Positions 10,594-58,509 of a DNA stretch of 64,000 nucleotides are shown here, in pieces. The number at the start of each line of letters is the position of its first letter. Position 1 is the stretch's first letter. The notes under the pieces are model-generated. The model saw only the letters and a list, made by a program, of their open reading frames with translations, had not been told where the DNA came from and did not search any database. The stretch spans positions 7,564,001 to 7,628,000 of the forward strand of contig OY294049.1 in the NCBI GenBank assembly GCA_958510825.1, given 5' to 3'. Position numbers and translations under genes: made by a program. This DNA comes from Brachypterus glaber (taxonomy: Eukaryota; Arthropoda; Insecta; Coleoptera; Kateretidae).

Positions 10594-12765
10594 CTACCGT
10601 GACCGGTTATCGTGTGCTCTGAGTAAATTAAGAGACCCAAGGATTACTGCTTTCTGCATGCGACCAGCCAGAATTTCGGCTGAGTCGCGACATGTCGGTA
10701 TGGTTTTGAGGTTAGAGAGAAAGCTGTCATTTATACCACCAAGGGATCCAACAATAAGCACCACCAGTTTTATAGAGTGGTCTGGATACAGTCTGCGGAG
10801 TTGAAAAAGAAGATCCTGATATTTTGTCCGCTTGTCCTCCTCCTTCAAAACAATGTTTCTTTCGGCTGGGGCCGAGAACTCAATAACAAACATTGTTTTG
10901 GCATTGTGGTCGAGGAGGACGATATCTGGCTTATTGGAGAATGAATAGTTCCAATATATGCGGCATCTATCATTCTCCACCACGGACTCAATATCAGCTG
11001 GAGCATAGGGCAATACTGGTGTTTCGTCTAACCCATACGAGTGCCTGAGAAAGTAATAAAGCACTCGTAAGGCCGCGTTATGTCTGCGAATATATGCCGA
11101 GACCGCATATGTGGAACATGCAGAAAGTAAATGCATGATGGTCTCTGGCATTTTTCGACAGGCCCTGCAGTTGGTATCAGGAACCTGCATTCCCATAACG
11201 CGACTCCGGTAGACTAATGTGTTAAAAACGCCATCTTGGCAAGCAAGTATGAATCCCTCGGTCTCCGACTTTAACCCACCTGACCTAAGAAAGGAATATG
11301 TCAGTCTTTTGGATAAGCCAAGGTCTTCTATGGTCTTAAAGAAGATTCCATGCATTGGCTTATCCATGTGTGACTGCAGAAGCATCGAATACTCTGCAGT
11401 TTTGATGTGGGTTTTTAATTGAACGGGACCCAACTCAGTTACAGAGTTTGGGTTTTCCCGTTCAAAGTCGAATATGAGACCGAGTTCTTCAGCTGCTCTC
11501 GATGCTGCCCTGAAGATAAAGGCTCCAACTCCGGCTACCTCGTGGTCATAAACTAACCGTAGCAGGGGGTCTTCGCTCCTTATGATCTTACAGGCTGTAT
11601 CCAAGGCCACTCTATTGTGAAGATACTCCAAACCTAAGAGTCCACGACCACCCCGATTTCGTGGGAAATATAGTCGTGGAACGGACGATCTCGGATGCAA
11701 GCTTCTAAAAAGATTCATAAGCTTCCGAGTAGAACGGTCAAGTTGGCGCAACTCATCTACTGTCCACTTGATGGTTCCAAATGAGTAGAGTAGAATTGGA
11801 ACAGCAAGCATGTTTGTGGCAGACACTTTATTGGGTCCAGACAGTTCTGATGACCAGATCTGTCGGAGGCAGTGTCTGTACTTGCTGCGGAGAGCGTCTT
11901 TAACAGATCTTACTTCCTGGGTATGACTTTGTTCCATACCCAGATAGGTGTACCTCTCTCCGGCATCTAGATGATGAAGGATGCTTCCGTCTACGAGTTG
12001 CGCATCTTCGCCGATTTCTACTGATCGTCCTCTCTTGAGATGTACCAGTGCATATTTATCCATGCCAAATTCCATGCCGATAGCGCGTGTATACTCCTGT
12101 ACCACCCGTAGGAGCTGATTCAGATCTCTTTCTCCTGAGGCATAGAGTTTAAGGTCATCTATATAAAAAAGATGTGAGACCTTATGCCTCCTATTTCCGA
12201 GTGGACCGCAACTGTAGCTGCGAGTATTTCTTAGAGCAACGGACAGAGGAAGTAGTGAGATGCAAAAAAGGAGAGCACTAAGGGAATCTCCCTGAAACAC
12301 GCCTCTTCTAATTGTTACCAACCCTGTTCGAACTTTACTATTACCACTGGATATGGTAAAGCTAGTTCTCCAAAGTGGCAACAATTCTTCCATGCATCTC
12401 ACTACGGGCTCTGGCACCGCAAGGCATCTTAGCAAGTAAATAATCAGCTCGTGCGGTGTTGTATCAAATGCCTTGCGGTAATCGATCCAGGCCATTGAGA
12501 GATTTCGCTTATACTGTATGGAGTCCTGCGTGATGCATCTATCTATCAGCAGGTTCTCCTTACAGCCAGCGACACCTCTCTTTGACCCCCGTTGCTCATA
12601 TATAGATTGAAATACTCGGTCAGCAGCCTGGAGTACTCGCATGTATATGATGCGTGTAAACACCTTATAGCACGCGTTCAAACACGTTATCGGCCTGTAG
12701 ATTTTGGGCATGGACAAATCTCCGTTCTTAGGTATTAGCACTGTGCGACCTCCCCATTTAGCCAA
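10594..12765 (-). CDS. Dong/R4-like RT and restriction-like endonuclease (723 codons)
   Basis: Continuation of the element's polyprotein. It opens with WGGRTVLIPKNGD (RT), then RPITCLN, the AWIDYRKAFD motif (~92-101), RRGVFQGDSLS (~153-163) and the catalytic FYIDD box at ~200-204. After the thumb region comes the zinc motif C-x2-C-x8-H-x4-C at ~533-550 and a PD-(D/E)xK-type nuclease core (KPD at ~612-614, VIEF at ~627-630, K-rich segment after it). These are the hallmarks of R2/R4-type elements, which nick the target and prime reverse transcription there. The start as given is a TTG with an in-frame stop just upstream, showing that this is the 3' side of a frameshift, not a separate gene. Confidence 0.82.
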   Translation of the reverse strand: MAKWGGRTVLIPKNGDLSMPKIYRPITCLNACYKVFTRIIYMRVLQAADRVFQSIYEQRGSKRGVAGCKENLLIDRCITQDSIQYKRNLSMAWIDYRKAFDTTPHELIIYLLRCLAVPEPVVRCMEELLPLWRTSFTISSGNSKVRTGLVTIRRGVFQGDSLSALLFCISLLPLSVALRNTRSYSCGPLGNRRHKVSHLFYIDDLKLYASGERDLNQLLRVVQEYTRAIGMEFGMDKYALVHLKRGRSVEIGEDAQLVDGSILHHLDAGERYTYLGMEQSHTQEVRSVKDALRSKYRHCLRQIWSSELSGPNKVSATNMLAVPILLYSFGTIKWTVDELRQLDRSTRKLMNLFRSLHPRSSVPRLYFPRNRGGRGLLGLEYLHNRVALDTACKIIRSEDPLLRLVYDHEVAGVGAFIFRAASRAAEELGLIFDFERENPNSVTELGPVQLKTHIKTAEYSMLLQSHMDKPMHGIFFKTIEDLGLSKRLTYSFLRSGGLKSETEGFILACQDGVFNTLVYRSRVMGMQVPDTNCRACRKMPETIMHLLSACSTYAVSAYIRRHNAALRVLYYFLRHSYGLDETPVLPYAPADIESVVENDRCRIYWNYSFSNKPDIVLLDHNAKTMFVIEFSAPAERNIVLKEEDKRTKYQDLLFQLRRLYPDHSIKLVVLIVGSLGGINDSFLSNLKTIPTCRDSAEILAGRMQKAVILGSLNLLRAHDNRSR

Positions 12766-14740: not shown

Positions 14741-15009
14741 ATGGGAGGCATAGCGTAGTGGCTAGCGCGTATGTATAGCAAGTCTACTATCGTGAGTTCG
14801 ATTCTCACTGGCGCCGATTAGCCTTGTTCAGTTAATTAATAATTGAAATTTGGCGAAGGCGCTAAGTGAAACGGACATTCCCTAGAAACTGGTTCGAAAG
14901 TCAGTATAAGCCTGTAGTTCCCTCTACTACTAGCCCACACAAGTCCTGGACTTAGGGGATGCTTGATTAAGTAGAATAGTACGAGGTTAAACAAACAAAC
15001 AAACAAACA
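14741..15009 (+). mobile_element. tRNA-derived SINE, copy 1
   Basis: The head carries a Pol III A box (TAGCGTAGTGGCTAGCGCG) and B box (GAGTTCGATTCTC), then the family body: TTAATTAATAATTGAAATTT, GGCGAAGGCG, GGTTCGAAAGTCA, CCTCTACTACTAGCCCACAC and AAGTCCTGGACTTAGGGG. It ends AATAGTACGAGGTTAAAC with an (AAAC)n tail. Copies 2 and 3 are at 30719-32035 and 46481-46745. It is non-coding and would use a LINE's enzymes. Confidence 0.85.
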
Positions 15010-20363: not shown

Positions 20364-23300
20364 TTATTGTCCTGGTAAAGGACACAACTTAACAAAAGGT
20401 CTTTGTAAAGAACCATTTTGTGTTTTTAATGTAGCGACTCTACATACACCATCTTTACCAGGGTGTAAATGTGTAATTCGGCCTAAGCGCCATTTTAAGG
20501 GTGGAGATAGCTCGTCTTTAATCAAAACCAAACTACCCACATCTAGCGATTTGGACTGATTTGTCCATTTTTGACGTTGCATTAACGTATGAACATACTC
20601 CTGGTGGAACCGTTTCCAGAAGTCTTGCAAAAACCTCTGTAAGAGTTGCCAGCGAGTTAGGCGATTAAGTTTAATGTCTGTGACATTTTCATCGGGTACC
20701 GCAGTCAATGGTTCGAGGGTGAGAAAATGTCCAGGCGTCAAAGGTAACAAGTCATTGGGGTCTGAGCTTAACGGCGTCAGCGGCCGAGAATTCAACACAG
20801 CTTCTATTTGGACTAAAACAGTGTTAAACTCTTCGTACGTCAAAATTTGTGAACCTATTATTCTAGTAAGATGCGATTTTACCGACTTTATTCCCGCCTC
20901 CCAAAGCCCTCCGAAGTGAGGTGCTGAAGGGGGGTTGAATTGCCACTCAATAGCCTCCGTTTCTGCAGCTTGTTTCATAAGCCTATTAAGTTCTTTAAAA
21001 GCTCCGACATAGTTGGTACCGTTGTCACTCCATAGCTTAGAACACCGACCGCGTCTAGCTATAAACCGACGTAACGCTGCTAAGAAACAATCCGCAGAAA
21101 GATCCGAAGCTAATTCGAGATGTACCGCTTTAGTCGCGAAACATACAAACAAACAAATGTACGACTTCGAAGTTTTGGCCCCACGAGTTTTAACTTGCGT
21201 GGTCAGGAACGGACCTGCAAAGTCAGTGCCGGAAATTGAATAAGGTTTTATCCGGTTTAACCGGTCCGGGGGTAAGTTACCCATTAAGGGTTGCAAAGGC
21301 GAAGGGTTTGCGCGAAAGCAAATATGACATTTAGACAAAACACTCCGAATTGCGCGTTTTGCGGACAAAATCCAAAAATTCTGTGCTAATAAAAAATGCA
21401 CAGTTTGTGCGCCTGCGTGTTTATGGTCCAGATGACATTGTTCGATTAACAATAAAGTAAAAATATGATTTTTAGGTAATAATAAACTATGTTTTTTATC
21501 AAACGAAAAACTAGAATTACCAAGACGACCGCCCACCCTGACGAAACCCTTTTCGTCAAGAAACGGTGATAATCTACGAAATTCTTTCGAACAAGGAATA
21601 TTTTTTCTAAGATTTTCAATTTGTACCGATAATGAACTTAATTGAACATGTTTAACCAAAGTCAACATTGATTCTTGCAATTCTTTAGCAGTTAATGCGT
21701 TATAAATTCGATTATTTTTCGATTTTAAATTATGAACAAATCGAATACAGAATGCAAGCACTTTTCTAACTTTGTTTAACAAAGAAAACCGAGCTAAAAG
21801 TAAATCAAAAATATTCTCGTCCTGTGTAGTGATTAAAACGATTTTTCTCTCCTCTGCAGCGATATCTACAGGGGGAGTTATTTCCGAGGAGATAAACTTT
21901 TTATCTGAACGGAGCCATACAGGGCCCGTCCACCAAAGGGCATGATCTATCAGTTCTGAGGGAAAGATTCCCCGAGAACAACAATCCGCAGGATTTTCAA
22001 GACCACTAATATGCATCCAGCATTCAGGGCTTAATCTTTCCTGAATGTAGGTCACACGATTACTAACGAAAGTCTTCCACCGATGTGGCGACGACTTTAT
22101 CCACGATAAGGTTATAGTCGAGTCGGTCCATGCAAAAATGTGGTCAAACGTAATATTATTTTTATAAGTATTTATGACAAAGTTCATAAGTTTAGCTAAA
22201 AGTACAGCACCGCATAATTCTAGCCTAGGTAACGATAACCTTTTTAAGGGCGCGACTTTTGACTTAGCTACGACCAGCGAAGTTTTATAATTTTCCTGTG
22301 AATCTAAATACCGCACGAAAATTACGCAACCGAAACCCTTTTCTGATGCATCAGAAAATCCGTGTAATTCACACGACGAATAATTTTCTGAAAACATGTA
22401 ACGATTAATTTTTACCGACGATAATAAATTTAATTCCGAATTGAATTTTTTCCAGTGATTAACGATTTCTACTGGTAATGGTTGATCCCACGATAAACCG
22501 AGTATCCATAAATGTTGTAATAAATGTTTAACGAGAAAAGTAACCGGCGATAACCATCCCAGTGGATCATAAATACGAGCAAGTTCTGAAAGAATATTTC
22601 TCTTAGTGTATGCTTTTTCCACCACACAAGTTGAAAACGAAAATTTATCTGTGTGCGGAAACCATTGCAAACCAAGTATTTTGACGAAGGGGTCTTGATC
22701 AAACGATAGCAAATTTTGTTGGTGAGATTCCGGAATATTTTCTAAAAGTTCCGGTGTGTTACTTGACCATTTTTTAAGCTCGAACCCACCCCGGTTTAGT
22801 AAATTTATTAATTCACGTTGGAGCGCTAAGGCTTCTTCAATAGTCCGGCAACCACTAACAATATCGTCGACATATATTCCGGACTCCAAAACGGCGGCAG
22901 CGTTTGGAAAATTATGTCTTTCATCGTCAGCTAATTGACGTATAGTTCGCAATGCTAAATAAGGGGAACTCGAAACCCCGTAAGTTACGGTTTCTAAACA
23001 AAAATCTTGTATGGGTAAATCGGGCGAAAAACGATAAACAATGCGCTGATAATTTTTATGCGATTTATCAATAAGAATTTGCCGATACATTTGTTTTATA
23101 TCAGCGACAAAAACGATTTTATGTAATCTAAAGCGAAGTAAAATTTGACAAATATCCGCCTGTAATTTAGGACCAATATACAGGGTGTCGTTAAGTGACG
23201 TGCCGTTATTCGATGCACAATTAGCATCGAAAACTACCCTAAACTTTCCCAACGTACCCCCCGCTCCTACAAAATGATGAGGGATATAGTAAGGGTTGTC

Positions 23301-25517
23301 AAATTCTTTGACATTTTTTATTAATGTCATATGACCCGAATCTAAGTAGTCTTGCATAAATTCATTGTATGCTATTCGCCATTGCGGATTAGCAACAAAA
23401 CGACGTTCCAATGATAATAAACGCCGAACAGCTGATGACCGAGTGTCACCGAAATTGGGGATTATATTTTTAAATGGAAGCGATACGATATAGCGACCTG
23501 TAGAGTCCCTCCCATGCGTTTCGACAAAAGAATTTTCACACGAAATGTCATCCTCAGACATGGGCGTGACCGAAGGTATATTTTCTATTTCCCAAAAATT
23601 TTTTAGAGTTTGTTCTAACGAGTTATCGCTAACGAAAAACGAATGCAAATTTCCAGCGGTTTTAACGGTCGTTTTGCCCATCAATACCCAACCAAAAACG
23701 GTATTAAAGGCTACCGGTTCATTACTTTCCCCGGTAATTTGGCCATTAACCATACTAGTAGCGAAAATTTCCGTACCGATTAACATGTCGATAGAACCAG
23801 GCGTCGCTAACTGTGAGTCAGCTAGCTGTAAGTTTTGAATATGTTTCCAATTTTCAATCGGCAATTTATTTTGAGGCATTTCCGAACAAATTTTCGAAAG
23901 AATGACTGCTTCAAAAGTAACTAAATGCGATGAATTTGTTTTCGAACGAACTGTACAATGTGTAAGCCCCTGTGGCTTCACTGGAAAAGGCCCTAGCCCC
24001 TGGATCGAATTATCCACGCGCAACCTACGAAGGCCCAGCCTATCTACACACGACCGTGTTATTATATTAGCTTGTGAAGCGCAGTCAAAAAGGACTCTAA
24101 TTGTTTGATAATTGCCAAATGCATCTAAGATCTCTACTTGTGCAGTTCCAAGCAGTACAGTCGACAATACCGATGCGTTAGCTAGCAGCGTAGTTTTCGT
24201 AGCCGGGACCGCCTGTGACGTAGAGGGAACGCTGTGCGGTGACTCCGTATCTCGCGACTGGGACGTCGCCGGCAGTGCGCTCGGACTATTGTTAAAATGC
24301 AGGAGCGTGTGGTGTCGAGAACCGCACTCCCTGCAGTTCGAGGAAGATACACACGAATTTGATCGGTGCGAATGCCCTAAACAGTTTAGGCACAAATTAT
24401 TATTTTTAACGAAACAAAAACGTTCATAAGGCGATTTCTTTATAAACAACGAGCAGCGATTAATATTGTGTTGATTCTTGCAAAGAATACACGATGAATT
24501 ATTTACGACAAATGAATTAGGGACTGATGTATGCAACTTTCCCGAATGTAACAAATTTTTCGGTTTGTTACTGGCAAGTGGGGGCGAATTTAAATTAAGG
24601 TTTTTACTGCCAGAATTTTCGACGGTTTCTAATGAGCGACAATGATTTTTCAAAAAACTAATTAAGTCGGTATACGAGGGTAGATCATTACTATTATATT
24701 TATCCTCATATTGCGTGCACAAATTTTTTTCTAATTTTTTAAATACCAAATCGAAAAGTATAAACGACCATTCTTCGGTGTTTAAACCTAATGTATTTAA
24801 TGCAGCAATATTTTCTGTCAGAGTATTAATTAATCTTTGAAGCGATTCTAAATTATCAGGAACGAATTTAGGCAAATTAGTAATTTCATTCCAAAACTGC
24901 ATGGCTAAAATCCTCTTATTTTGATATTTGGACTTTAGTGCGTCATAAGCGATGGGGTATGTATTATTTGAAAGGGGTATAGCTTTGACTAAGGCCAATG
25001 GGGCGTCAGACAAGCTCCCTATCATGTAGTGATATTTTTCAATATTTGTGAGATTTGGGTGGCTATGAATAAGCGAATTATACAAATCAAAGAAAGACGG
25101 CCATTGTTTAAAGTCCCCATTAAATTGTGGCAATGATATTTTGGGAAGTTTAACCTGTTTTGAGCCATCACAACTCTTACTATCGGTTCCACCAAAAATT
25201 TTATTATGATTAATCTGAATTAAAACAACAATATCATCTACATCATGGCGTAATTTGGTTTCCTTTTTTATCTCAGCTGTGCGTTCTGCGGTTTGTTCTT
25301 TTGAAAGAACTTCGATAATTTCGCTAGACAATTTTTCAAAATGTCTGAACAACAAATCCACAGATTTATAACGAATTCTAAAGCTTTCATGCTTAGTGGG
25401 ACTCTCCAATGCGGCAACGCCAATGCTATTTATGCGCTTGATACGCTCAATTATTGCATTTCTATCATTCAATAAAAATTGATATTTTTCCATATTGGAT
25501 GAGTCAGTCCCAAGCAT
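20364..25517 (-). CDS. BEL/Pao gag-pol polyprotein (1,717 aa)
   Basis: One uninterrupted frame encodes all retrotransposition proteins. Residues ~120-290 are the BEL/Pao Gag region (LPKISLPQFNGDFKQWPSF). Cysteine clusters at ~343-400 are zinc-binding. The aspartic protease region at ~455-500 has FDCASQ, with catalytic D478 but C-A where relatives usually have S/T-G/A. RT spans ~740-930 with KFRVVFD, ADIKQMYRQI and YVDD at 882-885. RNase H follows (HGFSDASEKGFG). Integrase has an H-H-C-C zinc site and DDE core segments GTDFAGPF, WSDNGTNY and GLWEAGIKS. The C-terminus is the integrase tail (GSLVLIKDE). The ATG at 25517 leaves a ~0.6-kb leader. All catalytic signatures are present, so the product is probably functional. 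Confidence 0.95.
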   Translation of the reverse strand: MLGTDSSNMEKYQFLLNDRNAIIERIKRINSIGVAALESPTKHESFRIRYKSVDLLFRHFEKLSSEIIEVLSKEQTAERTAEIKKETKLRHDVDDIVVLIQINHNKIFGGTDSKSCDGSKQVKLPKISLPQFNGDFKQWPSFFDLYNSLIHSHPNLTNIEKYHYMIGSLSDAPLALVKAIPLSNNTYPIAYDALKSKYQNKRILAMQFWNEITNLPKFVPDNLESLQRLINTLTENIAALNTLGLNTEEWSFILFDLVFKKLEKNLCTQYEDKYNSNDLPSYTDLISFLKNHCRSLETVENSGSKNLNLNSPPLASNKPKNLLHSGKLHTSVPNSFVVNNSSCILCKNQHNINRCSLFIKKSPYERFCFVKNNNLCLNCLGHSHRSNSCVSSSNCRECGSRHHTLLHFNNSPSALPATSQSRDTESPHSVPSTSQAVPATKTTLLANASVLSTVLLGTAQVEILDAFGNYQTIRVLFDCASQANIITRSCVDRLGLRRLRVDNSIQGLGPFPVKPQGLTHCTVRSKTNSSHLVTFEAVILSKICSEMPQNKLPIENWKHIQNLQLADSQLATPGSIDMLIGTEIFATSMVNGQITGESNEPVAFNTVFGWVLMGKTTVKTAGNLHSFFVSDNSLEQTLKNFWEIENIPSVTPMSEDDISCENSFVETHGRDSTGRYIVSLPFKNIIPNFGDTRSSAVRRLLSLERRFVANPQWRIAYNEFMQDYLDSGHMTLIKNVKEFDNPYYIPHHFVGAGGTLGKFRVVFDANCASNNGTSLNDTLYIGPKLQADICQILLRFRLHKIVFVADIKQMYRQILIDKSHKNYQRIVYRFSPDLPIQDFCLETVTYGVSSSPYLALRTIRQLADDERHNFPNAAAVLESGIYVDDIVSGCRTIEEALALQRELINLLNRGGFELKKWSSNTPELLENIPESHQQNLLSFDQDPFVKILGLQWFPHTDKFSFSTCVVEKAYTKRNILSELARIYDPLGWLSPVTFLVKHLLQHLWILGLSWDQPLPVEIVNHWKKFNSELNLLSSVKINRYMFSENYSSCELHGFSDASEKGFGCVIFVRYLDSQENYKTSLVVAKSKVAPLKRLSLPRLELCGAVLLAKLMNFVINTYKNNITFDHIFAWTDSTITLSWIKSSPHRWKTFVSNRVTYIQERLSPECWMHISGLENPADCCSRGIFPSELIDHALWWTGPVWLRSDKKFISSEITPPVDIAAEERKIVLITTQDENIFDLLLARFSLLNKVRKVLAFCIRFVHNLKSKNNRIYNALTAKELQESMLTLVKHVQLSSLSVQIENLRKNIPCSKEFRRLSPFLDEKGFVRVGGRLGNSSFSFDKKHSLLLPKNHIFTLLLIEQCHLDHKHAGAQTVHFLLAQNFWILSAKRAIRSVLSKCHICFRANPSPLQPLMGNLPPDRLNRIKPYSISGTDFAGPFLTTQVKTRGAKTSKSYICLFVCFATKAVHLELASDLSADCFLAALRRFIARRGRCSKLWSDNGTNYVGAFKELNRLMKQAAETEAIEWQFNPPSAPHFGGLWEAGIKSVKSHLTRIIGSQILTYEEFNTVLVQIEAVLNSRPLTPLSSDPNDLLPLTPGHFLTLEPLTAVPDENVTDIKLNRLTRWQLLQRFLQDFWKRFHQEYVHTLMQRQKWTNQSKSLDVGSLVLIKDELSPPLKWRLGRITHLHPGKDGVCRVATLKTQNGSLQRPFVKLCPLPGQ

Positions 25518-37349: not shown

Positions 37350-39410
37350 ATTATAAGTGTTATATGTTATTTTAAGTTATTATGAGTACAGATTTAGATT
37401 TTAAAATGTATAATGTAAATATGGTGTAAAAAGTAAAAATGCATTAATCATTACAATAAAACCTAAAATAAAAATAATTATTTTTTACACGATATATTCG
37501 GTAAAAGTACACAATATATCTTGGATTATTACCGTAGGTATCAGTAAATTATAACAAATTACAAGATATATCATTTAATTTTACAAGATATATTATTTAA
37601 TTTTACAAGTATACTGTAATTTATTTTACCTTATATATACTGTAATAATAAATTACAGGATATATCTGGATCACAAAAGATGCCACAATTTTCACCAGTG
37701 TATTATGAAAAACTCTTGTACGCTGCGAAGAGTATTTATTAATTATCTTCACGGGTTGTTTCTAGTAGGTACTGATAAGTGAGTGACAGTGGCCTCTAAC
37801 AAAAACCTACTTTAGTGAAAAGCTCGGTTTCCTAGCATTATCTATATTCAATAAGGAGCTTTTGGAACTGTTAATCCCAGATAACTTCAGATGATAATAC
37901 GGTTCTAAGGTTCTCAATTCTTAGTTGTAACTTTGGCAAACTTTCCTCATCATTAATTATAATTACAGCCCTTTTGTCCATTTCGTTTATTAAACGTGCT
38001 TTACGGAAGGATAATAATCTGGCAGATTACGTTAAAAAAAAGCGAAACCAAATTAAGGCAAGTAAACGGCCCATTTCACCGCTATAATTTTGCAGAGTTA
38101 ATTATAATTATTGTACAAATTGTTATATACCTTTCCCTTCGAGTTTGATGTAAGGTGGGTGACCCAATTATTACCATATTCCTTATATTGCCACCACTCT
38201 TAAATTTATTAGTTCGTTCATAGTTGGCACTGCCAAAAAGATTCCTGTAAATATGATGTATAAAAACTTGTAAAATTGTGTTGACTGTCGCAAGCTGAGT
38301 AGCATGGATTATTGCAGGGCAAGAAGGTAATAAGGTAGGCACAAACGTGCACTTTCTTGACCCATATTGTGTTTCACTTAATAAAGAAGCGAAAAGGTAA
38401 TTTTTAAAGATTTTTGTATATGTAGCTGTGTTCCTAATATTTCCACTTGAAATAGTTGAACCAAAAAATCTCAAAAACAAAAAAAAAAAAAACAAGAAAA
38501 GAAAGTTAAAAAGAAATCAGTGAGTTCTGAATATCGGTTCTGCTTTTTATTCGAAGAGAATCGCCTGGCCGATTGAGATTGCTAAAAACGACAAATTGTT
38601 ATTATATTTAAGTTCCCAAATTGTACCTACAAACAGCTTAAATTGTCATTGTGCTAGAATATTTTCTTATTAGTTTGTTAATTAGTTTAAGAGGGTTAAA
38701 AACTTAAAAATATTTAAAAAAAAACACATTATTCTGTAATATAAAACATAAAAAACAAGTAACGGGGTATCACCCTTAGATTTGATGAAAATCCACCCCC
38801 AGAGAGAGGGTTAAACTACCCCCCACGCACCAAAAAAGGTAGTAGATCATAAAGTATCTCAAGAAAAATCGAGTTAAAGGGATCCAGTCAGTTATGTTTA
38901 ATAAAAGTGAGATAGTTTGGTATAAAATTCAATTCAAGTACCCCTAGTTGACCCTTTGTTTAAGAGAATATTTAGCTTCTAGAACAATAAATCTTGCTTT
39001 TTGCACAAGTTCATGACCACAGACAAAAATTTTGAGCACTTATACGTTACATTTTATCAATTCCAATCGAAGTTACAGATGTTTGAAAAAGAGGCTAAAA
39101 AACTCTTTTTTTCCGTCACATTTTAAATCCAGTAAAACATAAAATGCCTTAACATGGCAATAATTGGCTCACCCACCTTACAGTTATTTTTTTACTGCGT
39201 GAATCTAGTAAATTCGGAACGTCATAAAACTCAAATATTTTTTTACCGTGAACAACGTGAAAATTTACTTATAATTAAGTACTAAGACATTGGATCTTCG
39301 TAAAATTTTCAAAGTAATATAAAACTAAATTTTGCCGTTATATACAGTACGTGTGCATAAGATCTCCCATAGTAAAGTGAACTAGAGTTATAAACACGGC
39401 AACAGCGTGT
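37350..39410. other. No recognisable gene
   Basis: AT-rich DNA. Near 37500-37670 there are several AAGATATAT/ATAATTTAATTTTACAA words, a weak short repeat. The longest open frame (38082-38495, minus) shows no domain and I do not call it. Confidence 0.45.
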
Positions 39411-39415
39411 CGAGT

Positions 39416-39436
39416 ATAATAATAATAATAATAATA
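39416..39436 (+). repeat. (TAA)n left of truncated Dong/R4 copy
   Basis: About seven TAA units abutting the 5' truncation point. Confidence 0.85.
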
Positions 39437-40441
39437 GTTGGAGCCTTTATCTTCAGGGCAGCATCGAGAGCAGCTGAAGAACTCGGTCTCATATTCGACT
39501 TTGAACGGGAAAACCCATACTCTGTCACTAAGTTGGGTCCCGTTCAATTAAAAACCCACATCAAAACTGCAGAGTATTCAATGCTTTGGCAGTCACACAT
39601 GGATAAGCCAATGCATGGAATCTTCTTTAAGACCATAGAAGACCTTGACTTATCCAAAATACTGAAATATTCCTTTCTAAGGTCAGGTGGGTTAAAGTCG
39701 GACACCGAGGGATTCATAATTGCTTGCCAAGATGGTGTTTTTAACACATTAGTCTTCAGGAGTCGCGTTATGAGAATGCAGGTTCCTGATACCAACTGCA
39801 GGGCCTGTCGAAAAATGCCAGAGACGATCATGCATTTACTTTCTGCATGTTCCACATATGCGGTGTGGGAATATATTCGCAGACATAACGAGGCTTTACG
39901 AGTGCTTTATTACTTATTCAGGCACTCGTATGGGTTAGACGAAACACCAGTGTTGCTCTATGCTCCGGCTGATATTGAGTCCGTGGTGGAGAATGATAGA
40001 TGCCGCATATATTGGAACTATGCATTCTCCATCCTAAGGCATAAGCAATAAGCCAGATACCGTCCTCCTCGACCACAATGCCAAAACAATGTTTGTTCTT
40101 GAGTTCTGAAGCAGAAGGACAAGCGGACGAAATATCAGGATCTTCTTTTTCAACTCCGCAGACTGTATCCAGACCACTCTATAAAACTAGTGGTGCTTAT
40201 TATTGGATCCCTTGGTGGTATAAATGACAGCTTTCTCTCTAACCTCAAAACCATACCGGCATGTCGCGACTGAGCCGAAATTCTGGCTGGACACATGCAG
40301 AAAGCAGTAATCCTAATTTACTCAGAGCTCACGATAACCGGTCACGGTAGAGGCTTACTCCAGAGAGCGGTTGCCGCAATTTCCCCGCACGTCACCTCGG
40401 TCATCGGAGGACGAGGTGGACCTGTCGAGTTTTATTTCAAA
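39437..40441 (+). pseudogene. 5'-truncated, frameshifted Dong/R4-like copy
   Basis: Homologous to the C-terminal ~300 codons of the element at 10495-14156, from VGAFIFRAASRAAEELG to the 3' end TTTATTTCAAA. The first ~200 residues are open, including the CRACRKMPETIMHLLSAC zinc motif. At IYWNYAFS an insertion shifts the frame, and a deletion removes part of the nuclease region near 40100. It sits between TAA arrays (39416-39436 and 40442-40484), oriented with TAA on the coding strand, as in the longer copy. Confidence 0.85.
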
Positions 40442-42916: not shown

Positions 42917-42996
42917 ACACTGCCTTGCTAAGCTGAAAGGTCCTATCTGTGTATGTTAAACCTATTTAGATAGGACCTTTCAGCTTAGCACGGTAT
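42917..42996. repeat. Perfect 22-bp-stem hairpin (mini-MITE)
   Basis: Arms 42927-42948 and 42968-42989 are exact inverse complements around a 19-base loop. The outer CTGCC and GGTA continue partly paired. The GTCCTATCT and GCTAAG blocks relate it to the TIR element at 32615-33118. Size and shape resemble a miRNA precursor, but relation to a MITE is the simpler reading. Confidence 0.75.
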
Positions 42997-43256
42997 TCCA
43001 TAGAATTTGAAAGTGCAAATTTTAAAATTGTTTATATGCAATATTTTTGTTATGAAAATTTCATATAATTGTTGATGTCTAAATTTTACATATCTAATTT
43101 AAAATTAATCTATTTTTTATTAATAGCCTAATAAAATTATATTTTACATAGCATAATGCACCCTAAAAAATTAATAAAATTTTTCCAATCGAAACCCTTT
43201 TTTACGAAATTAAGTTACAGTTCGTTTCAAACAAGAAATTCCAGTTATAATTTATG

Positions 43257-43387
43257 TATTATTCCATCAATCTATTTTCTAATCATCGTACAGAGTGATA
43301 TTGGTAAAATGACAGTTTCGGGCTGCTGGCCCTCTTCAGTACCAAGAGTCAACTCTGCACGCTGATTAAGAAAACGTTTTTAGACTT
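43257..43387 (-). repeat. 131-bp direct repeat, copy 1 (ribozyme-bearing)
   Basis: Nearly identical to 43611-43741, offset by 354 bp. The visible differences are in the bases at 43307-43310, inside the ribozyme. The 223-bp spacer is not repeated within the window. Confidence 0.92.
43287..43361 (-). ncRNA. Hammerhead ribozyme type I, copy 1, probably weakened
   Basis: Read on the minus strand it has the same stem I (CGUGCAGAGU with ACUCUGUACG, and UUGGUA with UACCAA), the core CUGAAGA, stem II GGGC/GCCC with CAGCA loop, and GAAA as copy 2. Two changes hit the cleavage region: stem III becomes ACU/AUU, with a C-U mismatch, and the nucleotide at the cleavage site is U rather than C. The triplet is UUU instead of GUC. 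Such a site is allowed by the NUH rule but usually cuts poorly. The predicted cut would lie between 43307 and 43306. Confidence 0.8.
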
Positions 43388-43610
43388 TACTCGCAAAAGG
43401 AATATAGCCATTAGATTGATGTAGACTTGTGCGCCATCTATTTCTAGATGTAGACAACTACTCATACCTCTCCTTATCTGGAGACTTTGAATGGTAGCAA
43501 GTTGAAGACTTGTGTGTCTCAAGCAAATAGTACCACTAACGGGTGGTTAGACGTAAAATTAGTAAGGACAGAAATTTTTAATTTTAAACAAAATTATAAA
43601 AATATTAATT

Positions 43611-43741
43611 TATTATTCCATCAATCTATTTTCTAATCATCGTACAGAGTGATATTGGTAGACTGACAGTTTCGGGCTGCTGGCCCTCTTCAGTACCAAG
43701 AGTCAACTCTGCACGCTGATTAAGAAAACGTTTTTAGACTT
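43611..43741 (-). repeat. 131-bp direct repeat, copy 2 (ribozyme-bearing)
   Basis: Second copy of the repeat at 43257-43387. The arrangement resembles terminal repeats of Penelope-like elements or retrozyme dimers; no RT or GIY-YIG sequence lies nearby. Confidence 0.92.
43641..43715 (-). ncRNA. Hammerhead ribozyme type I, copy 2, complete
   Basis: Minus strand, 5' to 3': stem I strand CGUGCAGAGU, internal loop UGACUC, UUGGUA; conserved core CUGAAGA (43687-43693); stem II GGGC-CAGCA-GCCC; conserved GAAA (43670-43673), whose last A opens stem III; stem III ACU-GUC-AGU; cleavage-site C; then UACCAA, internal loop UAUC, ACUCUGUACG closing stem I. Every invariant hammerhead position is present, all three stems pair, and stem I has the internal loop that in natural type I ribozymes contacts loop II. 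The predicted cut is between 43661 and 43660, after GUC. Family knowledge: short stem III hammerheads occur in Penelope-like elements and animal retrozymes. Confidence 0.88.
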
Positions 43742-44478
43742 ATAAAAAGTCCTTATAATTTATGTGTTGTATTTAAGTAGTTTTGTATTTTAGTGTTAAA
43801 TTTAGAGTTTTTTGTTTTAAATTGTTTTTGTTTCTTTAAGATAAATTAGAAAATAAAAGATTAAAATTTTGGTCTTAGTATTGTAACGTCCGTCATGTAC
43901 CCCGTCATCGCACATTTAATTTTCTCATATACATACATGTACTGTATATTAAACTAAACATAAATAAAATAAAAAAAAATATCTGGTACCAATGCCAATC
44001 ATACTATAATAAAGTTTGAATTTAATCCTCAATCATTTTTTTAATATTCGGGCCAAACATAAAATAGATTTATTCAAGTTCCATTTTTTGTAGCGCCCGT
44101 CATCAAAATTTAAAAAATATAATCTTGTAAACCCTAAATATCAGATAATTATTGTATTTATTATTTTATCCAATACATACAGATAATAAGACAATTACCA
44201 GCTTTATTTTAAATAGATAATCTCAATAATAACCCCAGCGTGGCTTTTACTTTATTGAGTGGATAATTATTTATTTTACCCACTCAACTGTCACAGGTTA
44301 ATTTTCTCATGGGCAATATCTTACTTTACCCACTAGTACCATAAATAACTATTATTTAAGCTCATCTCCACTTTCTATTTTTCATATCAACTTTAATATC
44401 AGTCTTAGTTCTTAAGACTTTTTAAATACTTGATAAAATATTGTACGAATGGTAGTGTCCGTCATTAATGATGACTTA

Positions 44479-45266
44479 TCAGGATTTTGACATAACCTCA
44501 AAAAACACCCGAAAAACTACTGAAACCGCTAAAATCATCTACTCAATACCACTTTCACCCCCTTCATCTAAATTCGTAATTTCGTAACCCCATAATCACC
44601 TCACCTCGGAATACCATTACTTCATAACCTCAAAACCCCGTAACCTCATTAAGTAGAAAAATCTGGTTCGGGAAAACAGAACAATTAAGTGAAATTTTCT
44701 TGTAGAATATAGTAATGAATAAGTAACTGTATAAACATAAAATCCCATCACACCTCCTAACCCCTTCACTCCGTAACCCAATATATTATAACCTCGTAAC
44801 CCCAGCATCCTATTCTGTGGAGAAATCCGGTTCTCAAAATCATAAGAGTTTTATGAGTGAAGTCATGAGTCAAGGTCTACTTCATTATTTTTTTAACCGG
44901 ACTTCTCCACAGAATAGGATAATGGGATTAAGGGGATATAGTATATGGGGTTACGAAGTGAAGGGATTTTGAGGTTATGGTGTTGGGGGATTTTGGGGTT
45001 ATAGAGTTACTTACCTATGACTATGTTCCACAAAAAAAAACTGAAGAATGTTTTCTGTTTTCCTAAACTAGATTTTTCTACTTAATGAGGTTACGGGGTT
45101 TGGAGGTTATGCTGCGGCTATGGTATTATGAGGTTAGGGGATTATGGGTTTCTGGGGTTTTAGAATTAGCAATTTGGGGACAGGGGATGACAGTGGTATG
45201 GCATAGATGATTTTAGAGGTTTCAGTAGTTTTTCGGGTATTTTTTGAGGTTATGTCAAAATCCTGA
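44479..45266. mobile_element. 788-bp palindromic element with TAACCCC-like internal repeats
   Basis: Ends TCAGGATTTTGACATAACCTC and its exact inverse at 45246-45266 begin long, imperfect arms. A second pairing, CATCCTATTCTGTGGAGAA... with its inverse, lies near the centre (44808 and 44892). Both arms are rich in short AACCTC/GTAACCCC words on one side and GGGGTTA/GAGGTTA on the other. Non-coding. Confidence 0.8.
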
Positions 45267-46751: not shown

Positions 46752-46893
46752 TCAATATCGTCCATATCGCCTCGAGATCGCCAGATATCGCCTCGAGTTC
46801 GCCCATCTCCTCGAGATCGCCCATCGCCTCGAGATCGCCCGATATCGCCTCGATATCGCTTCGATATCGCCCCCGATATCACCTTATATCGCC
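46752..46893. repeat. Minisatellite built on GATATCGCCTCGA
   Basis: About nine degenerate units of TATCGCCTCGAGATCGCC immediately after the SINE tail. It is much richer in CG than its surroundings and would encode an RSRGD-type peptide repeat by chance. Confidence 0.85.
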
Positions 46894-47617
46894 TCTCAAA
46901 GGAACAAAAACCGCCCATCATTGCCAACTCTGACTCATTAAAATAAAGGATATACATCTCTAAAAAAGGAAAAACGAAACCATTTTGTTTTAGTATTTTT
47001 TTTTTGTATCAAATTATTAAACAACCATAACAGTTTTAGGACACTAAATACCCTTAGCAAATGTAGATACTGGTATACTTAAGAAGTAGGAAAACTATGA
47101 AAATTTTTTTCATTTTATTGTAGCATTTTTAAAAAATAAAGTGCAATTTGTTATCACAGGCGAAATTTTTCCTCTTTTTTTTATAATTTTAGATTCTTCT
47201 GTAATGGCCACTATTTGTTGATCCATATTGAGATCAATCGTAAATTAAAAGGATATTAAGCGTCCTTTAAGCATTTTATAAAGGACAAAGGACAGAAGTA
47301 GAAAATATAGGACGGTTGGCAAACCTAGTAGCTACTATTAAAGTTAATGGAAAAGCGTAGCTCTAATTTTATGAGACAAATGGATGATTAGCAAGCAATA
47401 AACAAAGAGTAAAAATGAAAACTCGTTTATTGTATTTTCCAGGAAAATTCGAAGACAGCAAAATTAAACTTTAAGTAGACAGGTACTACATTGTAGTAAA
47501 TACAATGTTGGGGTGGGATTTAGGCCAAATCATATAACTAGAAATAACGAAAATATAAGGAAGAGAATTAGACTTATCCCCTTACATCATACTTATGAAA
47601 AAGCTAATACTTTTATA

Positions 47618-49471: not shown

Positions 49472-50640
49472 TAATAATAATAATAATATAATAATAATAT
49501 ATTTATTCACCATGCGTACAGTTGTACATGTGGTAAGTCAATGAGTATAAGTTTATAATAATACATTATATTAAATTGACAGGTCTACGCCCGTAAGTCA
49601 TTAAAAATATTGTATTACGAAAAATATTTGCCTAAGTATAAAAATAAGAATAAATATAAAAAATAAATAATTATAAAATTATAAAATATACCAATCTTTG
49701 CACGCATGGAACTCTTTCAAACTATAAATAAAAGAAGTGATTTTATTTTTTGTTTAAATCTCTTACTACAATTTATATTTTTTATAAAATCTGGTAGGGA
49801 ATTATACAGGGAAATACAGTTATATTTTTGTGATTTTTTAAATAAGGCAGTTTTGTGCTTGGAAATGAGCAGTAGTTTACCTTGTCTTGTGTCGCGATTA
49901 TCGCCATGTCTTAAAAATAGGTAAAAATTATTTTTCATAAAACATACACATGTTAAAATATACACAGATATCACAGTTAAAATTCGTTTTGATTTAAAAA
50001 TATCTCTACAACTGACAGTAGGCTATAGGTTAAAAATTAGTCATAATAACCTTTTTTGCAAGATAAAAACTCTAGATGCTTCAGATGCTGAGACCCAGCC
50101 TAAAATATTAAATGATATATGAGAATTTGCAAGAGCAAAGTATACATTTAGAAGTCCGGTAGTGTCAAGTACATTTTTAAGTTTAAGGATTGCAAAATAT
50201 GCGCTGTTTAGTTTCTTAACAATATTTTCGACTTGGAAACCCATTTTAAATTACTATCTAAGGTGGTACCTAAAAATTTGGATTTAAAGGAGAAATTTGT
50301 AATTAGATCCAAATTGAAAGGGGGTTTGACATTGTAGTACTTGATGGTAACTGTTTTTGATACATTTAAAATTAGTTTGTTACGTTCACACCAAGACGAA
50401 AACTCGTTAATTACACAAGGCCTTTTGATATAAACATAGGCAGGTCGTTAATATATAGTAAATTGGCCCAAGTATGGTTCCTTGCGGTACTCCAAAGAGT
50501 ATATTTAAAAAATCTGAAAATACTCCATCCAATAAAACACTTATTGAACGTCCTTGCAGATATGAACATATCCAAATAATTATATTTTTAGGGATATGCA
50601 TGTATCTTATCTTAGTCGCTAGAAAATCTGGTTTAAGGGT
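49472..50640 (-). mobile_element. LINE B, related family, nested in LINE A
   Basis: Minus-strand RT pieces at 50407-50601 (GVPQGTILGPI), ~50245-50400 (INEFSSWCERNKLILN), 50041-50244 (VENIVKKLNSAYFAILKLKN) and 49717-49974 (HGDNRDTRQGKL, KTALFKKSQKYNCISLYNSLP). Stops and a deletion including the FADD box separate them. The 3' end is GGTGAATAAATATA plus a TTATTA-rich tail at 49472-49500. TGTAT occurs at both junctions as a likely target duplication. Confidence 0.75.
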
Positions 50641-50688
50641 ATGTATTTAAGTTTGTTTTATTTGTGAGGAGTTAATTTAATATTTTTT

Positions 50689-55836: not shown

Positions 55837-58509
55837 TTATCCGACCGATACATCACTATTCGAACCCAAATATTTCTTAAGATCTTTAACGTGCCAGTCT
55901 CCAATGGATTGACCGTTTTTATCCTGTAACACATAAACCAAATTTGACTTTTTACCTATTATCTTACATAACACGTACTTAGGCGCTAATTTTGACGCAA
56001 AATAATTTACTGCGCTGGAAAGAACTTTATTTCTTTTCCATACCTTCTCACCTATCGTGAACGTTACGTCACGCTTTCTAAGGTTATAGGCTCTTCTATT
56101 TCGCTCGTATGCTTCATGCAATTTAGTTTTTACATCCGCAAAAATGTCTTTTAACCCAACTAAATCCTTAAAATACATTTCCCGAGAATCCGGTTCCAAC
56201 TCAACGTCTTGAGTGGACGAAACTTTGCCATAGTAAGCCCCTGTTAAAGGTACGATTCTTCCAAAATTGAGAAACGCCGGCGAATGTCCGTGGACCTCAT
56301 TAACTGCGGTACGAAGCGCAAGACCTATTTTACCTATATTTTTATCCCATTCCCGGTGATTTTCTTTTATATAAGACCTTATCGCCGTTTCTACCGTTCG
56401 ATTCTGTCTTTCTGTAGGATTTACTTGTGAATGAAATTTGGCATTGTACCAGATTTTTTGAACTTGATAGTCGTCCGCAAGCTTTTTGAAAGCTTTCCCA
56501 GCAAACTGAGTACCATTATCGACAATAATGTACTGCGGTACGCCATATATTAAGAACACCTGATTTTCTATAAATTTTATTACACCTTGAGCAGTAGCTG
56601 TTTTCAAAGGTTGTAAAAGTGTATATTTTGTGAACCAATCAGATACTACTAATAAATAACAAAACCCTCCATTCGATCTAGGTAATGGACCTATAAAATC
56701 TGTTGAAATACACTGCCAAGGGAAACTAATATTCTTTTCTTTACCCATCAACCCATGACGTGCATAATTCGGAACCTTTTGTTCAGCGCAAATTTTACAA
56801 CACTTAACATATTTCAAAATATCTGATCTCATACGTGGCCAAAAATATTCTTGTGATACCCTATTAAAAGTTTTATAAAAACCCATGTGAGCTGCTAAAG
56901 GATCATCATGACATTCTTTCATAACAAGCACCCTACAGAGTCTCGGAACCAACAACTTCCACTCTTTAATATTCGTTTTAATACCTAAATTAGAACGATC
57001 AAATTTATATATTTTATCTTCTACAATTCTATACTCTTTATATTGATTTGGACTCTTCAATATCTTTTCTCTTAATGAAACATAGTACTCATCTTTACCA
57101 TACTGTTCCGAATCAAATGATATTAAATTAACTGACGGAAATACTGGTTTTTCTGGTTCAACTTCTTCAAAAGCCCTACTTAATGCATCTGGAACTACTT
57201 GTAAACTACCCTTACGATATGTAATATTCATGTCATACTGTTGGAGTTTAACCGCCCATCTAGCAATTCTTCCTGTCGGGTCTTTAAAATTTGCTAAATA
57301 CTTTAAACTAGAATGGTCTGTTATAACATTAAACCTAACTCCTTCAATATATCCCCTGAAACGATCAATCGCGAATAAAAGAGCTAAACATTCTTTTTCA
57401 CCGGTGCTAAAATTTCTTTCTGATCTTGAGAGAGTTCTTGAGGCGTATGCAATAACCTTTTCCTTTCCCTCCTGAACCTGTGTTAACACTGCTCCCAAAC
57501 CTACATTACTAGCGTCACATTGTATGGTGAAAACAAGGTCGTACCTAGCACTGGTTAAAACCGGAGCTGAAACAAGAGCTTCTTTTATTTTAACAAACGC
57601 GACTTCAGCTTCATTATTCCATTTAATTGGTTGTTTCTTTCCTAAACCTTTCAGCAAAGCATTAAGTGGTGCTACTAACGTTGCAAAATTTTTTACAAAC
57701 CGTCTGTACCATGAACATAACCCTATAAACCGTTTAATCTCTGTAGTTGTACTAGGACGTTTATAATTTAACATATCCTGTACTTTTTCTATATCTGTGC
57801 GTAACCCTTCTCTATCCAAAACAAAACCCAAATACTTTAATGATTTTCTAAAAAATTTACACTTATCAAAATTTATTGTAAGATTAGCTTCTTTTAAAAT
57901 ACGATAAACCTCTTTTAGCAGACGTATATGTTCTTCAAAACTAGATGATACTATTATTATGTCATCTAAATATACAAAAATATATGGTTCAAAGGCAGCA
58001 CCAAACAATTTATCCATCAATCGTTGTTGCCTTTGCGCCGCGTTAGCCAACCCAAAACACATACGATTAAAGTGAAATAGACCATAGCCAGGTACAGTGA
58101 AAGCGCATTTTTCCTTTGACCTTTCAGTCAGTGGAATCTGCCAAAAAGCTTTTTTCAGATCGATTGTAGAAATATATCTCGCCTTACCAAGCATACTTAA
58201 AATTCTATCAATTTTTGGTAATGGATAAGAATCCTTCTTTGTTTGAGCATTTAATTTTCTACCATCGAAACAAAGCCTATGCGATCCATCAGATTTTTTC
58301 ACTAACAATACCGGACTATTATAATCGCTATTCGAAGGAGAGACTACCCCTTGTGCTAACATATCTTTTAATTCTTTAACTAAAATTTCTTGCATATACG
58401 GAGACATTTGGTATTGTCGCATTTTAAAAGGTTTGTTATCCCCAGTATCAATATCATGTTTCATTATATTTATATCCATTATTTCTGAAATTTCTATTAT
58501 AGTTACCAT
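55837..58509 (-). CDS. Gypsy pol: RT, RNase H, integrase (890 aa), no protease
   Basis: The frame begins almost at RT: KHDIDTGDNKPFK (~17-29) is the usual lead-in. RT motifs include NSPVLLVKKSDGSHRLCFD, STIDLKKAFWQIPL and the catalytic YLDD at 180-183. RNase H: QCDASNVGLGAVLTQ (~330-344), E around 371 and TDHSSLK (~397-403). Integrase: zinc site H534, H541, C571, C574, and DDE at about D604, D664, E700, then a C-terminal tail with HVKDLKKYLG. The annotated ATG overlaps gag by 56 bp and lies in the +1 frame; it falls in asparagine-coding repeat sequence and probably is not a natural start. Relatives carry ~150-300 residues of knuckle and protease here. Confidence 0.93.
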   Translation of the reverse strand: MVTIIEISEIMDINIMKHDIDTGDNKPFKMRQYQMSPYMQEILVKELKDMLAQGVVSPSNSDYNSPVLLVKKSDGSHRLCFDGRKLNAQTKKDSYPLPKIDRILSMLGKARYISTIDLKKAFWQIPLTERSKEKCAFTVPGYGLFHFNRMCFGLANAAQRQQRLMDKLFGAAFEPYIFVYLDDIIIVSSSFEEHIRLLKEVYRILKEANLTINFDKCKFFRKSLKYLGFVLDREGLRTDIEKVQDMLNYKRPSTTTEIKRFIGLCSWYRRFVKNFATLVAPLNALLKGLGKKQPIKWNNEAEVAFVKIKEALVSAPVLTSARYDLVFTIQCDASNVGLGAVLTQVQEGKEKVIAYASRTLSRSERNFSTGEKECLALLFAIDRFRGYIEGVRFNVITDHSSLKYLANFKDPTGRIARWAVKLQQYDMNITYRKGSLQVVPDALSRAFEEVEPEKPVFPSVNLISFDSEQYGKDEYYVSLREKILKSPNQYKEYRIVEDKIYKFDRSNLGIKTNIKEWKLLVPRLCRVLVMKECHDDPLAAHMGFYKTFNRVSQEYFWPRMRSDILKYVKCCKICAEQKVPNYARHGLMGKEKNISFPWQCISTDFIGPLPRSNGGFCYLLVVSDWFTKYTLLQPLKTATAQGVIKFIENQVFLIYGVPQYIIVDNGTQFAGKAFKKLADDYQVQKIWYNAKFHSQVNPTERQNRTVETAIRSYIKENHREWDKNIGKIGLALRTAVNEVHGHSPAFLNFGRIVPLTGAYYGKVSSTQDVELEPDSREMYFKDLVGLKDIFADVKTKLHEAYERNRRAYNLRKRDVTFTIGEKVWKRNKVLSSAVNYFASKLAPKYVLCKIIGKKSNLVYVLQDKNGQSIGDWHVKDLKKYLGSNSDVSVG

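Follow-up and report, generated by a model that had tools for sequence, protein, structure and literature searches.

A short insertion with hammerhead-bearing direct repeats in the beetle Brachypterus glaber resembles an animal non-LTR retrozyme

Animal non-LTR retrozymes are described as tandem type I hammerheads in units of 150-450 bp, low in GC and without LTR, PBS or PPT; they are known from families with many copies, whose arrays range from dimers to long multimers, and have been reported in invertebrates including crustaceans and insects (PMC7229834). The same account gives linear and circular RNAs of 170-400 nt and target-site duplications (TSDs) that, when present, are longer than 4 bp (PMC7229834). 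TSDs of 15 bp have been reported in Nematostella, a tick has yielded a putative retrozyme RNA, and self-pairing above 70% has been given for retrozyme RNA (PMC4918200). Our own literature search on tandem type I hammerheads in arthropods returned no papers.

Here, we describe a locus in Brachypterus glaber (Coleoptera, Kateretidae) that lies in a stretch of 64,000 nucleotides (contig OY294049.1), referred to below as the window. In our assessment, this locus with high probability arose when an animal non-LTR retrozyme inserted once, by the route proposed below. It has the appearance of a small mobile element that inserted recently, and most likely represents the landed copy of an element whose kind is already known. 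A unit that is short, AT-rich and non-coding, a hammerhead that is not minimal, a partial dimer and a long TSD fit the published animal non-LTR retrozymes better than Penelope-like or LTR elements. The features of the insertion and of the surrounding window, which also contains retroelements, are collected in Table 1. A protein search with residues 500-1100 of the BEL/Pao polyprotein matched 1643 proteins; among the best 120, most of them unnamed, the recognizable organisms were beetles, moths and butterflies, with a pseudoscorpion scoring highest, which points to an arthropod.

Table 1. Coordinates of the insertion, its ribozyme parts and retroelement sequences elsewhere in the window
Feature	Positions	Strand	Remarks
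Whole insert, 495 bp	43258-43752	- (RNA sense)	About 1.4 units (partial dimer) of a 354-bp retrozyme unit; exact 13-bp duplications at both ends
Left TSD, TTATAATTTATGT	43245-43257	.	Exact match to 43753-43765
Right TSD, TTATAATTTATGT	43753-43765	.	Exact match to 43245-43257
Copy A direct repeat	43257-43387	-	3' copy in RNA sense; last base, 43257, inside left TSD
Copy A hammerhead, judged broken	43301-43345	-	U at 16.2 (43309), U at 17 (43307)
Unique body, 223 bp, non-coding	43388-43610	-	Longest stop-free frame in insert, 65 codons
Copy B direct repeat	43611-43741	-	5' copy in RNA sense; bears intact type I hammerhead
Copy B hammerhead core	43655-43699	-	Descriptor match, letters checked; sub-threshold RF03152 match over 43656-43699
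Copy B inner stem I, 6 pairs	43694-43699 / 43655-43660	-	
Copy B CUGAAGA	43687-43693	-	
Copy B stem II, GGGC/GCCC, 4 bp	43683-43686 / 43674-43677	-	Loop CAGCA
Copy B GAA	43671-43673	-	
Copy B stem III, 3 bp	43668-43670 / 43662-43664	-	3-base loop
Copy B C17	43661	-	Predicted cut between 43661 and 43660
11 bases between repeat B and TSD	43742-43752	-	5' end in RNA sense; placed by alignment, putative
BEL/Pao polyprotein	20364-25517	minus	
Gypsy-type pol	55837-58509	minus	
RT ORF	10594-12765	minus	

A preliminary description of this DNA had recognized two 131-bp direct repeats 354 bp apart and had given the element a span of 43257-43741. The repeats were confirmed, with 129 of 131 positions identical and two differences, whereas the ends of the element had been missed; the limits of the 495-bp insert, with its 13-bp flanking duplications, are new in this analysis. 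The duplicated sequence is present at exactly two places in the window, directly flanking the insert, and the adjacent bases do not lengthen the match. When 20,000 pairs of 35-base flanks were simulated with first-order models of the surrounding sequence, 13 or more shared bases were found in 8.

These flanks bear on two other explanations of the locus. The layout of repeat, body and repeat with target-site duplications would also suit a small TRIM-like LTR element, with 131-bp LTRs containing the hammerhead, as in plant retrozymes. LTR elements generally have TSDs of 4-6 bp, and their LTRs start with TG and end with CA. The repeats at this locus have neither the initial TG nor the final CA, the hammerhead is of type I and not type III, and the TSD of 13 bp compares with 4 bp in plant retrozymes (PMC4918200), leaving this explanation the least probable of those that we weighed. 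The locus might instead be a fragment of a satellite that carries hammerheads and multiplied by unequal exchange, without retrotransposition, which we regard as very improbable: exact flanking duplications are not expected from unequal exchange, and only about 1.4 units are found here, between exact 13-bp duplications. Hammerheads are nevertheless known in animal satellites, and pDo500 of Dolichopoda cave crickets shares with the locus an insect hammerhead repeat with a unit of a few hundred bp; it differs in being a satellite with a unit of about 500 bp, whereas the locus is a single insertion with TSDs (PMC2837043).

Within the retrozyme insertion favored here, the two ends are not alike. 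In the RNA sense, the 3' end adjoins the duplication, and at the 5' end 11 additional bases stand before the repeat, possibly filler or a diverged piece of the unit. Such asymmetry could be compatible with target-primed reverse transcription of a minus-sense RNA. The motif CTTATAA is present at 43739-43745 and again at 43752-43758, with one occurrence overlapping each end of these 11 bases, and this microhomology may have aided joining of the cDNA end.

The ribozyme parts listed in the preliminary description (stem I of 6 and 10 pairs, GGGC/GCCC, GAAA and a 3-bp stem III) were all seen in copy B on the minus strand. In its predicted fold, the outer stem I has 10 pairs and continues beyond them, and both an internal loop in stem I and the CAGCA loop in stem II are present; in metazoan non-LTR retrozymes, the loops of these two stems make tertiary contacts. 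A strict hammerhead descriptor (at least 6 pairs in stem I, 4 in stem II and 3 in stem III), the limits of which were fixed after the motif was seen, gave one match in the window, copy B, versus 3 in 4000 shuffled windows. With a looser descriptor (at least 5, 3 and 2 pairs, respectively), copy B was again the one match in the window, versus 9 in 400 shuffled windows. The core letters without stems matched at 9 places, both repeats among them, versus 1.73 expected; this bare pattern alone is too loose and discriminates less than a descriptor with stems. When 106 bases were folded, z was -4.75 for copy B and -4.58 for copy A; in neither case did any of 200 shuffles fold equally well. By its descriptor counts and fold z, the copy B hammerhead is beyond chance.

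The lowest-energy fold computed for copy B differs from the catalytic fold. Forcing the catalytic pairs cost 6.3 kcal/mol in copy B and 9.6 kcal/mol in copy A, relative to the unconstrained minimum. Copy B is predicted still to self-cleave. Its stem III stretch, CUGUCAG, is self-complementary except for a central U.U, so that, on this reading of the sequence, two transcripts could pair into a double hammerhead, a form described for newt ribozymes (PMC6155905) and for axolotl (PMC7229834).

Rfam support for the hammerhead is weak. At gathering score, no hammerhead family was matched in the window, the sole match being a tRNA elsewhere, and a search of 601 bases at E<=10 returned 7 matches, none of them a hammerhead. 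When the 48 bases of copy B were compared with 4227 Rfam families at E<=10, the only match was RAGATH-1-hammerhead (RF03152; 17.3 bits, E 0.28), which aligns across the copy B core with stems I-III and C17 and lies far under the family's gathering score of 56.3; the 48 bases of copy A, compared with the same 4227 families, gave no match at E<=10. The preliminary description had named a covariance score below threshold as an outcome that would speak against the ribozyme, and formally this is the outcome obtained. We gave this score no decisive weight, since neither the descriptor nor the TSDs rely on Rfam.

The preliminary description had left open a choice between a retrozyme and a Penelope-like terminal repeat, and had reported no reverse transcriptase (RT) or GIY-YIG remnant nearby. 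The latter statement holds among all 17 stop-to-stop ORFs of at least 70 aa between 37.8 and 47.1 kb, which were searched against Pfam; the lone RT-type match was to zf-RVT at 39386-40051, 3.2 kb from the insert (E 8e-5, 23.6 bits), under the Pfam cut-off of 27.5. Farther away, a non-significant match to RVT_1 (E 0.19) was obtained at 50410-50646. Penelope-like elements share with the locus their tandem type I hammerheads and are suspected helpers of animal retrozymes (PMC7229834, PMC7761336), which gives some weight to reading the locus as what is left of such an element with hammerheads in its terminal repeats, either the tandem pseudo-LTR or a copy with an internal deletion. We consider this reading improbable. 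The Penelope hammerhead is described as a minimal form (PMC7229834, PMC7761336), whereas copy B forms a stem III of 3 bp and its stem I is long and extended. No Penelope-type RT or GIY-YIG match was found in the 20 ORFs searched, out of 30 listed, and no Penelope RT lies between the repeats, where the body measures 223 bp and no frame in the whole insert exceeds 65 codons. Of the two alternatives in the preliminary description, the retrozyme is well supported by the tandem type I hammerheads, the AT-rich non-coding unit, the partial dimer and the TSDs; the Penelope-like element is not, given that the insert has no RT or GIY-YIG match and that the hammerhead is non-minimal.

Several other repeats were noted in the window. 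A strong hairpin at 42923-42993 on the plus strand (MFE -50 kcal/mol for 106 bases, z -9.7, 0 of 200 shuffles as stable) had no Rfam match at gathering score and, as modeled, resembles either a microRNA precursor or a foldback element of very small size. At 44479-45266, a 788-bp imperfect palindrome is 76% identical to its own reverse complement and has matching ends, TCAGGATTTTGACATAACC; no target-site duplication was seen by eye, and its sequence suggests that it is likely a foldback transposon. A minisatellite at 46764-46895 is built on a unit around ATCGCCTCGAG. The tRNA-like Rfam match at 14744-14816 (38.5 bits) was not called by ARAGORN, which found no tRNA in the window, and is possibly the head of a tRNA-derived SINE.

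Returning to the retrozyme insertion, the unit can be compared directly with the metazoan non-LTR retrozymes. Shared features are a canonical type I hammerhead, stem III included, with an extended stem I (in copy B, not in copy A), a low-GC (<45-50%), non-coding tandem unit, here of 354 nt, and a TSD longer than 4 bp, here 13 bp and exact. The GC content of the unit is 0.36, and that of the window 0.318. As a circle, the unit folds at -90.0 kcal/mol, compared with a mean of -64.2 (sd 9.0) for 100 shuffles. The locus differs from the published elements in comprising only about 1.4 units, in having a 3' copy altered at the cleavage site, and in the pairing of the circular unit, 61.6% versus above 70% (PMC4918200). 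Simple patterns revealed no Pol III A or B box and no TATA box on the RNA-sense strand of the unit, and no second copy of the unit was found within the window. The unit was also unmatched in viral and genome contigs, by exact-pattern scans, and in phages; this silence says little, because these collections contain viral, phage and prokaryotic DNA.

By contrast with the preliminary description, in which both repeats were intact type I hammerheads, only copy B retains the core bases and stems. Copy A differs from it by exactly two bases in the RNA sense, G16.2 to U and C17 to U, and all of the other 129 positions agree between the repeats. Stem III of copy A consequently reads A-U, a C.U mismatch and U-A, with the middle pair lost, and copy A matches neither the strict nor the looser descriptor. 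U17 alone is not always fatal to hammerhead cleavage. Because U17 is accompanied here by a broken stem III pair, little or no cutting is expected at 43307. Two cuts releasing a 354-nt RNA had been foreseen; since copy A is altered at its cleavage site, one cut is expected instead, and the 354-nt RNA is not predicted from this locus. The insertion is thus probably unable to release unit-length RNA and would be a landed, non-productive copy.

The position of the two changes raises the idea, which we think unlikely, that they are a scar of the element's multiplication at the cut bond. A reverse transcriptase could have made errors while copying the circle across a chemically unusual ligation junction, or it could have jumped from the end of one self-cleaved linear monomer to the end of the next, adding bases at the join. 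Two ordinary mutations would also explain the changes. Calculated after the fact and for one locus, the probability for two randomly placed changes is 0.00035 that both hit the 3 bases 16.2-17, 0.005 that they lie within 5 bases of the cut bond, and 0.03 that they are that close to each other anywhere. The abstract openings consulted on ligation-site effects and on template jumping with hammerheads named no such pattern. Should errors prove to be concentrated at the cut site in other copies, an insertion would preserve in its sequence the type of template from which it was made, a circle or joined linear pieces.

We propose the following model for the origin of the insertion. A source element elsewhere would give rise to a transcript with the polarity of the window's minus strand, and its hammerheads would cut the RNA into 354-nt units. 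A host ligase would then circularize these units, as suggested by earlier studies of retrozymes in coral, mussel and axolotl. The RT of another element, a LINE or Penelope, may have read the circle, or a multimer, slightly more than once round. The resulting copy of about 1.4 units inserted at an AT-rich site, where the insert and its 13-bp TSDs are seen, through machinery that would have been supplied by such a helper.

In summary, the nearly identical repeats and both TSDs, held together in one short insertion, form the footprint of one retrozyme being moved. The ends of the insertion show what any helper enzyme must do, namely cut the target with a stagger of about 13 bp and copy the unit into cDNA for about 1.4 rounds. 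The lesion at the cleavage site offers an easy test of whether the ribozymes of such copies fail upon arrival or afterwards.
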